NCBI RefSeq assembly: GCF_900129445.1
Contig: NZ_FQVT01000003.1
Span: 1-64,000 of the forward strand
DNA from: Salegentibacter echinorum
GTDB lineage: Bacteria; Bacteroidota; Bacteroidia; Flavobacteriales; Flavobacteriaceae
Length of the DNA stretch: 64,000 nucleotides
Direction of reading: 5' to 3'
The notes under the pieces are model-generated. The model saw only the letters and a list, made by a program, of their open reading frames with translations, ran no database searches and was not told the origin of the DNA. Of this stretch, positions 11,054 through 13,733 are shown in pieces (the stretch's first letter is position 1; each line of letters begins with the position of its first letter). Made by a program: the position numbers and the translations under genes.

Positions 11054-12472
11054 TTAGTTAGCCATTAAACCAAGTTCCTTTCCTTTTTTAAGCATTAATT
11101 CCCTTGCCGCCTTGTGTTCATTGGGAATATCACCTTCTAAAATAGCTTCTTTAATAGTATCTTTTATAATCCCAATTTCACGTGAGGGTTTGATATTGAA
11201 GGTTTGCATGATCTCTTCTCCTGAAACCGGAGGTTGAAATTTTCTTACCTTATCGCGTTCTTCTACCTCCTTCATTTTTTTTCGCACCACTTTAAAGTTT
11301 TTGTGGTAACGCGCATAACGTTTCGGGTTTTTGGTGGTAATATCGGCTTCACAAAGCGTCATAAGGTCTTCAATATCATCTCCTGCATCAAAGATAAGTC
11401 GGCGCACGGCAGAGTCGGTCACGTCATTATCAACAATCGCAATGGGACGCGAACTCATCAATACCAGTTTCTGCACATATTTCATCTTATCGTTAAGCGG
11501 TAATCGCAAACGCTTAAAGAGTTTAAATACCATTTTAGCCCCAACAAACTCGTGCCCATGAAAAGTCCAACCTATTTTTTTATGAAACTTCTTGGTCGGC
11601 GCTTTGCCAATATCATGGAGCAAAGCAGCCCATCTCAACCAAAGGTTATCTGTGTTTTCTGAAATATTATCTACCACTTCCAGCGTATGCCAAAAATTGT
11701 CTTTATGTTTTTGTCCTTCAATTTCATCAATTCCCTCCAGGGCAGTTAATTCAGGCATAATGATAGCGAGCAAACCGGTTTTATGCAGTAACGCAAAACC
11801 TTTAGACGGTCTATTGGCTAGCATAATTTTATGTAACTCGGTAGTAATTCTTTCTTTTGAAATTATTTTGATGCGCTTTTTATTTCTGGTAATGGCATCC
11901 AAAGATTCTTTTTCTATCTTAAAATCCAATTGGGTTGCAAATCGAATGGCCCTAAGCATACGAAGTGGATCATCAGAATAAGTGACATCGGGATCCAGTG
12001 GAGTTTTTATAAGTTTAGCTTCCAGGTGTTTTATACCATTAAAAGGATCTAATAATTCACTAAAGTTTTTCTCGTTTAAACTTAGTGCGAGCGCATTAAT
12101 AGTGAAATCCCGTCTATTTTGATCGTCTTCCAGGGAACCGTTTTCTACAATAGGCTTTCTACTGTCTTTTTGATAGCTTTCTTTCCTGGCGCCAACAAAT
12201 TCGATCTCCATATCGAAGGCCTTTAGCATTGCGGTTCCATAATTTTTAAAAACCTGAACTTTAGGTTGGTGTGGTAAGATTTCGGCTACTTTTTTGGCAA
12301 GGGCTATTCCACTGCCTATGGCCACAATATCAATATCTTTGGGTGCTCCCCGCTTTAAAATATGATCCCGAACAAAACCACCAATTACATAACTTTCCAG
12401 CTGTAATTCTTCTGCTGCCTGGGTTATAACTCTAAATATATTATGATTTAACGCGCTTTGGTATTTTTTCAC
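11054..12472 (-). CDS. CCA-adding tRNA nucleotidyltransferase / poly(A) polymerase family with HD domain
   Basis: A 472-residue class II nucleotidyltransferase expected to build or repair the 3' CCA end of tRNA. The N-terminal head has GGFVRD (residues 31-36) and the metal-binding pair in KDIDIV (D46, D48). RRDFTINALALSL near residue 116 and DPLRMLRAIRFATQL near residue 165 are classic family segments. An HD phosphohydrolase domain follows (LLHDIGKAPTK, H286-D287), as in many bacterial versions. The frame starts with GTG at 12472, which is the only start that keeps the usual N terminus (KKYQSALNHNIFRVI). A poly(A) polymerase role cannot be excluded from sequence alone. Confidence 0.9.
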   Translation of the reverse strand: MKKYQSALNHNIFRVITQAAEELQLESYVIGGFVRDHILKRGAPKDIDIVAIGSGIALAKKVAEILPHQPKVQVFKNYGTAMLKAFDMEIEFVGARKESYQKDSRKPIVENGSLEDDQNRRDFTINALALSLNEKNFSELLDPFNGIKHLEAKLIKTPLDPDVTYSDDPLRMLRAIRFATQLDFKIEKESLDAITRNKKRIKIISKERITTELHKIMLANRPSKGFALLHKTGLLAIIMPELTALEGIDEIEGQKHKDNFWHTLEVVDNISENTDNLWLRWAALLHDIGKAPTKKFHKKIGWTFHGHEFVGAKMVFKLFKRLRLPLNDKMKYVQKLVLMSSRPIAIVDNDVTDSAVRRLIFDAGDDIEDLMTLCEADITTKNPKRYARYHKNFKVVRKKMKEVEERDKVRKFQPPVSGEEIMQTFNIKPSREIGIIKDTIKEAILEGDIPNEHKAARELMLKKGKELGLMAN

Positions 12473-12547: not shown

Positions 12548-12580
12548 AAACCTCATAGGTTTCGAAAACCTGTGAGGTTT
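12548..12580. repeat. CCTCA palindrome, copy 2
   Basis: Arms AAACCTCATAGGTTT (12548-12562) and AAACCTGTGAGGTTT (12566-12580) pair with one mismatch around a 3-base loop. The sequence belongs to the ACCTCACAG family of palindromes found four times in the window. It lies between the copied tail of the YrdC gene and the CCA-type enzyme gene. Confidence 0.65.
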
Positions 12581-12589
12581 AACCCTCGA

Positions 12590-12691
12590 ATTCGTGGCAA
12601 CTTTATTTTCTAATCACTTTTACCTTTCCATCATTGCTTAATTTAATAATGGCAGAGGGTTTGGCCGATTTTTTTTCTTTTGCAAATTTAC
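12590..12691. repeat. Direct repeat, left copy: duplicated 3' end of the YrdC gene
   Basis: These 102 bases match 13151-13253 with no substitution and a single 1-base difference in a T-run (8 versus 9 Ts). The right copy is the real 3' end of the YrdC/Sua5 gene, its stop codon and 13 bases beyond; this left copy is a detached fragment of about 30 codons and cannot be expressed as part of the gene. The two copies bracket the GxxExxY gene. Both begin with ATTCGTGGC, part of the GCCACGAAT repeat. Confidence 0.92.
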
Positions 12692-12747
12692 CATTTAGAA
12701 TATAGTTCCTAAAGTTTTAATGACTTTTCATATACTGTTGTTTTAAA

Positions 12748-12764
12748 GCCACGAATTCACGAAT
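12748..12764 (+). repeat. Left inverted repeat of the GxxExxY unit
   Basis: GCCACGAATTCACGAAT lies just downstream of the GxxExxY stop. Its inverted partner at 13143-13159 matches at 16 of 17 positions. Together they enclose a 412-base unit that contains only the GxxExxY gene. Confidence 0.85.
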
Positions 12765-12766
12765 AT

Positions 12767-13141
12767 TTATAATACTATTCTTTTATGGTCTAGCAAATCT
12801 TTATGAAAGTTGGCTAAAATTGCCAATTTATTTTCTGAAACTTTTAAATAATTAATGCACTGAGCAATATGTTTATCATGAATATTTTCTATAGCTTTTA
12901 TTTCTAAAATTATTTTATCGAAAACCACAAAATCTGCATAAAATTTATGAGGTAGTATAGTGCCTTTATAGGAAACAGTATATTTTTTTTCTCTCTGAAA
13001 AGGAATATCACGAATTTTGAACTCCAGTTCAATTGCATCTTTATAGACAATTTCAGAAAATCCGCTTCCCAAATGATTATAAACATCAAATAAAGTACCT
13101 ACAATGGCATAACTTTCTTTTTTATGAATAATTTCCGCCAT
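12767..13141 (-). CDS. GxxExxY family protein, PD-(D/E)xK nuclease-like
   Basis: A 124-residue member of the GxxExxY family: the name motif is GFSEIVY near residue 27, and FYADFVVFDKIILEIKA (about residues 67-83) supplies the D...ExK pattern of the PD-(D/E)xK nuclease fold. Biochemical function is not established for the family. The context is striking: the gene starts 22 bases after the YrdC stop on the same strand, is enclosed by 17-base inverted repeats (12748-12764, 13143-13159), and beyond these a ~102-base copy of the YrdC 3' end is directly repeated. The arrangement suggests a small inserted unit that restored or copied the end of its host gene. A nuclease that targets the GCCACGAAT repeat is a hypothesis only. 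Confidence 0.88.
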   Translation of the reverse strand: MAEIIHKKESYAIVGTLFDVYNHLGSGFSEIVYKDAIELEFKIRDIPFQREKKYTVSYKGTILPHKFYADFVVFDKIILEIKAIENIHDKHIAQCINYLKVSENKLAILANFHKDLLDHKRIVL

Positions 13142-13142
13142 A

Positions 13143-13159
13143 ATTCGTGTATTCGTGGC
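13143..13159 (-). repeat. Right inverted repeat of the GxxExxY unit
   Basis: ATTCGTGTATTCGTGGC is the inverted partner of 12748-12764 with one mismatch. It lies in the 22-base gap between the GxxExxY start and the YrdC stop; its outer nine bases are also the first nine of the right direct repeat. Confidence 0.85.
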
Positions 13160-13253
13160 AACTTTATTTTCTAATCACTTTTACCTTTCCATCATTGCTT
13201 AATTTAATAATGGCAGAGGGTTTGGCCGATTTTTTTTTCTTTTGCAAATTTAC
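13151..13253. repeat. Direct repeat, right copy, within the YrdC 3' end
   Basis: The original-looking copy of the ~102-base duplication. It covers the last ~29 codons of the YrdC/Sua5 gene plus 13 bases past its stop, and its partner is 12590-12691. Near identity means the duplication is young or kept alike by recombination. Confidence 0.92.
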
Positions 13254-13733
13254 TACATAGTCCACACCTTCTAAAATTTCGGGGCTAATTTCAGCAAAAG
13301 ATTCTGGGGTTTTTTGCCCGCTAAGATTGGCAGAAGTAGAGACGATTGGTTTTCTAAATCTTTTTGCCAATTCATTGCTAAATTTATCCTTAGAAACTCT
13401 AATAGCCAGGGAATTATCTTCAGCGATTAAATTTTCGGCTACCCTAATGGGGTCGTCATAAATTACCGTAGTTGGTTTTTTGGTATATTTTAGAATATCG
13501 TAAGCTACCTCGGGCACATCCTCAATAAACTGATTGAGCATTTTATAATCTGAAACCAGGCAAATAAGTGCCATGCTTTCATTTCGCTTTTTTAAAGCAT
13601 AAACTTTATCTACAGCATCTGCATTGGTCGCATCACAGCCAATTCCCCAAACTGTATCGGTGGGGTAGAGAATGAGGCCGCCGCGTTTTAACGTGGCCAG
13701 GGCATTTTGTATTTCGGTTTTATGATCTTCCAT
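13164..13733 (-). CDS. L-threonylcarbamoyladenylate synthase family, YrdC/Sua5
   Basis: A 189-residue YrdC-fold protein. These enzymes use threonine, bicarbonate and ATP to make threonylcarbamoyl-AMP for the t6A37 modification of ANN-decoding tRNAs. The nucleotide-binding loop GGLILYPTDTVWGIGCDAT is at residues 18-36, followed by KKRNESMALICLVSD and IRVSKD; PIVSTSANLSGQKTPESF near residue 130 is characteristic. The last ~29 codons are duplicated downstream (12590-12691). The upstream GT4 gene overlaps this gene's start by 14 bases, so they are translationally coupled. A second YrdC paralogue lies at 30758-31378; which one carries out t6A synthesis is uncertain, but this one matches TsaC-type proteins well. 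Confidence 0.9.
   Translation of the reverse strand: MEDHKTEIQNALATLKRGGLILYPTDTVWGIGCDATNADAVDKVYALKKRNESMALICLVSDYKMLNQFIEDVPEVAYDILKYTKKPTTVIYDDPIRVAENLIAEDNSLAIRVSKDKFSNELAKRFRKPIVSTSANLSGQKTPESFAEISPEILEGVDYVVNLQKKKKSAKPSAIIKLSNDGKVKVIRK

Follow-up and report, generated by a model that had tools for sequence, protein, structure and literature searches.

How does a small gene come to lie between two inverted copies of one short sequence, with a second copy of its neighbour's 3' end just beyond them? The question is raised by the first 64,000 nt of contig NZ_FQVT01000003.1 of Salegentibacter echinorum (hereafter the window), in which a reverse-strand gene of the GxxExxY family separates yrdC from a cca-like gene. 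A reading made from the sequence alone had taken this arrangement for an inserted unit that retains or duplicates its host gene's end, and had raised the possibility that GxxExxY genes are movers that target the repeat. Comparison with other loci leads us to a broader reading, toward which we lean slightly, that the window contains an example of a widespread cassette of gene plus repeats, whose nuclease would recognise its own ends. The parts of this reading differ in strength. We are practically certain that GxxExxY genes are often boxed by inverted arrays of a short unit, and we consider it very probable that gene and arms are inherited as one unit; recognition of the arms by the protein encoded between them is rather probable, judging from the sequences compared below, and mobility driven by the nuclease is a tentative proposal.

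Inverted unit arrays around GxxExxY genes

The gene of the window (12767..13141, reverse strand) is an open reading frame (ORF) of 124 aa, assigned to PDDEXK_3 and to the subfamily GFSEIVYKDA. Its product scores 117.7 bits against PF13366 (cut-off 22), its sole Pfam match, with no transposase domain, and 126.7 bits against TIGR04256 GxxExxY (cut-off 35). A D-ExK catalytic core in a restriction-nuclease fold is present, and the structure model (pLDDT 91) and a re-alignment of 998 chains identify the fold as PD-(D/E)xK, Cas4-like; a sequence search returned no solved structure. In Cas4, four conserved cysteines bind an Fe-S cluster. Unlike nucleases of the Cas4/RecB type, GxxExxY proteins are about 124 aa long and, in an alignment of 40 sequences, none of the columns that are invariant or close to it is a cysteine; two narrower alignments each show one nearly invariant cysteine.

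As the sequence-only reading had it, this gene lies between inverted 17-nt ends (GCCACGAAT). The upstream arm (13143..13159, reverse strand), read as ATTCGTGTATTCGTGGC, is GCCACGAATACACGAAT in the orientation of the gene, and the downstream arm (12748..12764, forward strand) is its inverted partner GCCACGAATTCACGAAT; each holds two CACGAAT units, and the two match at 16 of 17 positions, 378 nt apart. Taken by itself, this repeat could have arisen by chance: across 424 kb of the contig, 13 inverted pairs score at least 13, the window's pair shares the top score of 14.5 with two others, and a box scan found none at a score of 15. What speaks for the repeat is that it recurs, and we judge the ends to be non-random because the motif is enriched in the genome (55 sites at two mismatches or fewer vs 9 for a reversed control), orthologous loci keep it, and members of the same protein subfamily share the unit.

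That inverted ends recur around other GxxExxY genes was confirmed at many loci. Each locus was scored by aligning locally the 200 nt that precede the gene and the reverse-complemented 200 nt that follow it (inverted-repeat (IR) score, threshold 14), and 121 of 186 non-redundant loci, about two-thirds, scored at least 14. This set derives from 211 loci, from which 8 lacking a usable ORF and 14 duplicates were removed, three of the 189 unique loci then being too short-flanked to score. The same threshold was reached by 78/122 loci vs 1/231 windows placed 900 nt away, by 77/118 loci vs 10/174 neighbouring genes (Fisher p 6e-29), and by 20/25 loci vs 0/45 controls in ten genomes taken from named records. 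The locus sets behind these comparisons overlap, and each species is represented by a single genome; the loci from genome searches are the best-scoring matches of each genome, and the 80 named loci were taken from the top of 582 matches to one consensus. Short flanks excluded L185, L192 and L224 from the 122-locus set and L328 from the ten-genome set, three remote matches on viral contigs (L151-L153) were excluded from the neighbour and orientation tests, and six loci with in-frame stops (L086, L171, L205, L210, L226, L230) were kept in the flank scores of the 122- and 118-locus sets. Six of the 25 loci from named records, three of them scoring, come from an Ignavibacteria genome identical to one in our Bacteroidota draw (G277); without it, 17 of 19 loci reach the threshold. 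These 19 are from Planctomycetota, Stieleria (Planctomycetota), Spartobacteria, Opitutaceae, Pyrinomonadaceae, Acidobacteria, Anabaena catenula and Anaerolinea (the locus of the last falling below the threshold), so that at least five phyla, Bacteroidota included, have scoring loci under the phylum assignments that we presume for most of the record titles. Among 40 loci fetched later, one of which was already in the set, 25 of the remaining 39 scored at least 14. The two arms of a locus also match each other, with a mean of 16.7 within loci vs 9.9 for between-locus permutations (maximum 10.9). The family itself is common: of the 296 Bacteroidota genomes sampled, 152 gave a match, 149 of them above the cut-off.

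The arms are arrays of a unit of about 7 nt repeated every 8-11 nt. At the 128 loci scoring at least 13, their median length is 35 nt, and their median distance is 28.5 nt before the start codon and 12 nt after the stop codon. Spacing varies with the protein subfamily: mostly 9-11 nt in the largest one, with next-but-one units 21 nt apart, 8-10 nt (18-19 nt) in the subfamily of the window, and 8-9 nt (17 nt) in the FQEVIYQR subfamily. A universal helical phasing of 10.5 bp was rejected, as it fits only the 21 nt of the largest subfamily. TTAAC precedes the outermost unit in 46 of 166 arms of the latter. The arrays are polar, the unit running forward upstream and in reverse downstream at 69 of 108 loci and the opposite way at five. 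Among individual loci, an Anabaena catenula gene (L336) has unusually long ones (86 nt, IR score 67), the gene of L095 has long tandem arrays of CATCTGTG / AAATCTGTG units on both sides, and L150, on a contig of a viral collection, has arms of the CACAAAG type (IR score 22).

Nuclease type and unit sequence are associated, an indication that the gene belongs together with its repeats as one unit. With subfamilies defined by protein motifs and units sought in both 110-nt flanks, CACNAAT was found on both sides in 15 of the 19 loci of the window's subfamily, the window included, as the sequence-only reading would have it, vs 0/108 and 0/34 in the other two large subfamilies and 2/167 among all loci outside its own. 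CRCARAG is on both sides at 77/108 loci of its own subfamily (LLESAYEE) and CAG[AG]ATT at 12/34, each with no matches in the other two. Across 128 loci, protein identity and arm similarity are correlated for pairs below 75% identity (Mantel r 0.41; maximum of 2000 permutations, 0.12), in a test that ignores the kinship of the hosts. Single genomes, for example Anabaena catenula and an Ignavibacteria genome, contain several subfamilies together with several units, and cross-matches among the three subfamilies were absent from the set fetched later. In most of its subfamily the window's unit is kept at 50-66% identity to the window protein, a persistence that would not be expected of unselected intergenic DNA.

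Turnover at gene junctions and the yrdC duplication

Occupancy of the junctions is patchy. Among 13 congeners having a yrdC orthologue, the GxxExxY orthologue lies between yrdC and cca in two (G005, G007), its upstream arms reading GCCACGAATACAC[GT]AAT; one (G008) has no gene there but, by eye, fragments of both ends, and ten have neither gene nor ends. In a member of another genus (G216), yrdC is followed by a GxxExxY gene of the window's subfamily and then by cca, with arms TTACCGCAAATTCGCAAATTA on both sides, and a gene of that subfamily also precedes cca in G220 and G184. From these comparisons the unit seems to be old at this junction and to have been repeatedly lost or exchanged. The cysD-cysN junction holds a GxxExxY gene at four of 15 congener loci, a gene of the four-helix-bundle family PF05635 (23S_rRNA_IVP) at three (L243, L245, L247), and no gene at eight, which have other palindromes or short spacers instead; these labels change six times on the cysN tree and six times on the cysD tree, vs a shuffled mean of 6.3. 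In three of the gene-free gaps (L238, L242, L244) we observed a palindrome of CCCCTAACCCCCGAAGGGG-like and GGGAGG stretches, and in others CTGAACTTGTTTCAGG repeats. PF05635 genes, present in 90 of 118 Bacteroidota genomes, are boxed as well: IR scores of at least 14 were found at 14/30 of their loci (L249-L278) vs 0/60 controls, with periods of 7, 14 and 21.

The genome of S. echinorum has four GxxExxY genes, one of them between cysD and cysN (L001) and another between rfbB and rfbA (L003; names by NCBIfam). Short periodic repeats can be seen by eye in the flanks of all four, with differing units, and the strict IR scores (11.0 for L001, 11.5 for L002, 7.5 for L003 and 14.5 for the window) disagree with the eye for the first three. 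At L003 (~1400-1480 and 1840-1870) the GxxExxY unit starts within the rfbB frame, whose C-terminus was apparently rewritten by the repeat. In this genome, 29 copies of the dispersed motif, both window arms included, give the consensus AAAANTTGCCACGAATNCACGAATATTT, and some of them form compact hairpins. Presence of the gene as the driver of the number of solo repeats was not seen in 15 genomes, which have from 3 to 48 matches and six of which carry a gene.

Copies within genomes were sampled in 17 genomes (first nine and later eight, three of the eight picked as suspicious), some copies per genome being compared, e.g., six of the 11 copies in G250 and four of the 12 in G069. Most pairs of paralogues are 34-80% identical. 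In G106 (L471) and G212 (L472), copies of the cassette follow each other head to tail, 99% and 97% identical respectively, with repeat arrays in between; tandem duplication of the cassette thus happens, which neither shows nor excludes transposition. A pair in G205 is 100% identical and alike over 2.4 kb, lying 15 kb and 9 kb from the ends of one 3.75-Mb contig, and may be an assembly overlap. Besides the tandem and G205 pairs, the closest sampled paralogues are about 80% identical, which counts against copy-and-paste or transposition.

The duplication that first drew attention to the locus was borne out as described. The true copy, comprising the yrdC 3' end and the first arm unit (13151..13253, reverse strand, 103 nt), and the second copy, with the same gene end and the first CACGAAT arm unit (12590..12691, reverse strand, 102 nt), show zero mismatches, the second having one T fewer in a T-run, which is far beyond chance. 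The yrdC gene (13164..13733, reverse strand) was left intact, also as claimed, and ends at 13164, four bases away from the upstream arm. The proposal that the unit itself retains or copies its host gene's end is nevertheless not supported. G005 and G007 have the orthologous gene and ends without any duplication, none being present at the junction in the 13 congeners examined, and the ten that lack the gene, where a duplication standing alone would have spoken against the link, also lack it. Direct repeats scoring at least 30 surround the gene at 28 of 182 loci, and the window alone clearly duplicates the end of a host gene. At five more of the 28, a repeat coincides in part with an open frame, which traverses repeat arrays in L195 and L335; in L381, L368 and L101 the copy on the downstream side stops before the first ATG or at most two bases from it. 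The remaining ones duplicate repeat arrays or non-coding DNA, and no consistent target-site duplication emerges from these loci.

Duplication as a step of cassette insertion was therefore rejected, since congeners carry the unit without it and the case is unique among the 182 loci. The duplication is best explained as a later local event in this genome, of tandem type and afterwards partly lost; that it arose by such a simple tandem duplication or by a template switch, independently of cassette insertion, we regard as quite probable. The one-base difference between the copies indicates that it is recent, the state of G005 and G007 that the cassette is older, and the whole-cassette tandem duplications of G106 and G212 show a comparable event. 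One end of the duplicated copy falls inside the arm, past its first unit, which could mean that a break in the arm was caused by the cassette; this position may be due to chance, or what is seen may be left over from a tandem duplication that began inside the arm. Between the second copy and the downstream arm lies a spacer (12692..12747), whose main part (12693-12747) has no second copy in the 424 kb and the loci searched.

Competing explanations and related systems

The reading that we favour sees a small Cas4/RecB-like PD-(D/E)xK nuclease enclosed by two inverted arrays, the sequence and spacing of whose units vary with the subfamily. The nuclease would bind its own arms, with the consequence that gene and arms are kept or moved together, and nicking or cutting at the arms could let host repair spread the cassette into new sites. 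Through the same cutting and repair the cassette could also undergo tandem duplication, one arm could be converted to match the other, or the cassette could be lost, leaving solo palindromes behind.

A number of observations weigh against this reading. Of the loci in the non-redundant set, 65/186 have no strong inverted repeat, three of the four GxxExxY loci of this genome among them. The unit patterns were set after inspection of the arms of the first set, and in the set fetched later own-unit matches are fewer (4/9, 8/16 and 1/10), several of the misses having related units such as CGCAGATT or CACAGATT. In that set, the LLESAYEE loci L444, L446 and L459 have CRCAGATT-like units that are also found in the subfamily of the window, so that the unit classes blur, and the arms of L395, L396, L404 and L407 show little similarity to those of the window; to these the host kinship mentioned with the Mantel test should be added. 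Dispersed CACGAAT motifs are abundant in congeners without the gene as well (e.g., 30 matches in G001). Against mobility in particular, the presence of window-type cassettes at yrdC-cca in two genera may mean an old resident that was lost many times, and no dispersed near-identical copies were established among those sampled in the 17 genomes. Carriage by phages or plasmids was rejected, one query having found 0 of 50,697 phage records and only 8 of 72,556 plasmid records.

The arrays could be host repeats or insertion hot spots that receive small genes, the nuclease being unconnected with them. Solo palindromes of the motif in congeners without the gene would fit such a passenger, as would cysD-cysN, which holds GxxExxY genes, four-helix-bundle genes or non-coding palindromes depending on the species; but the unit follows the protein subfamily across genera and families, different subfamilies have different units even within Anabaena catenula and the Ignavibacteria genome, and the four-helix-bundle genes show another period, of 7, which together make this explanation unlikely. 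Somewhat harder to sustain is a purely regulatory role without mobility, in which the arms are binding sites by which the protein or another regulator controls the gene and its operon. Closeness of the arms to the gene ends, strong polarity and regular spacing all agree with operators, but such a role would not explain why an equal array follows the stop codon, why solo palindromes exist elsewhere or why junctions are patchily occupied.

Least probable of the three, in our opinion, is pairing of the arms in an operon transcript and excision of the small ORF by RNase III, as in 23S rRNA intervening sequences, which are stem-bordered elements with a small ORF (PMC4990558). The genes are indeed usually oriented with their neighbours, both of which are co-directional in 85 of 122 loci and both opposite in only six (ORF-based counts, for which no baseline was computed). 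However, mismatches within the arms show no excess of the G-U-compatible type (151 vs 179 of the A-C type, p 0.14, 105 loci, in a test whose power is not known), and pairing alone does not need the association of unit and subfamily.

Two known systems come close to these boxes. In REPtrons and TIRtrons a small transposase is accompanied by repeats, particular groups of repeats being associated with particular RAYTs (PMC3116915; PMC3733652). Like them, and like REPINs with their RAYT (TnpA-REP), the cassettes combine a small DNA-processing gene with inverted repeats, which may likewise be dispersed as solo palindromes. Unlike RAYT, a HUH tyrosine transposase, the GxxExxY protein is a Cas4-like nuclease of the PD-(D/E)xK type; its arms, unlike REPtrons, repeat a ~7-nt unit every 8-11 nt, and in the 15 congeners solo copies vary in number regardless of whether the gene is present. 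Intervening sequences of 23S rRNA, which encode the S23/IVP protein (PF05635), likewise have a short ORF between inverted repeats, a sporadic occurrence and a proposed mobile origin (PMC4990558), and they are linked to the present cassettes by the boxed PF05635 genes of Bacteroidota, which share the cysD-cysN junction with GxxExxY. In contrast to them, the three junctions studied lie between protein genes (yrdC and cca in the window) and not in an rRNA helix, the protein family is a different one, and the mismatches within GxxExxY arms gave no sign of selection for RNA pairing. GxxExxY boxes thus resemble both systems and have the defining enzyme or location of neither. Insertion sequences and MITEs (miniature inverted-repeat transposable elements) also have terminal inverted repeats around one gene and gene-less derivatives; unlike in insertion sequences, the GxxExxY protein has no transposase domain, and neither a consistent target-site duplication at the 182 loci nor dispersed recent copies among those sampled in the 17 genomes were established.

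In the open literature, to which our search was confined (subscription papers and preprints lying outside it), we found no description of GxxExxY genes (PF13366/TIGR04256) together with repeats, and no described function for the family. It is conceivable, though doubtful, that GxxExxY and its arms are an undescribed minimal selfish DNA, in which a mini-Cas4-like nuclease recognising its subfamily's unit would drive matching evolution of the arms and a spread to gene junctions across phyla, with the unrelated PF05635 family doing likewise on a 7-nt period. The tie between subfamily and unit turns a family of unknown function into a testable case of protein-DNA specificity, and could account for part of the periodic inverted repeats found between Bacteroidota genes. 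Cassettes of this kind would be a second gene-plus-palindrome system beside RAYT/REPIN, with a different nuclease fold, and the data suggest that boxed four-helix-bundle genes, perhaps rRNA intervening sequences too, belong to a wider class.

Neighbouring features of the window

Both neighbours of the GxxExxY gene are co-directional with it. The upstream one is a yrdC/tsaC-type gene for L-threonylcarbamoyladenylate synthase (TIGR00057), and the downstream one (11054..12472, reverse strand) resembles genes for CCA tRNA nucleotidyltransferase, its 343.8 bits against TIGR02692 being below the cut-off of 438.8. Just past the duplicated copy, at 12548-12580, lies a second dispersed palindrome, AAACCTCATAGGTTT..AAACCTGTGAGGTTT, which occurs at about seven other sites in the 424 kb of the contig.
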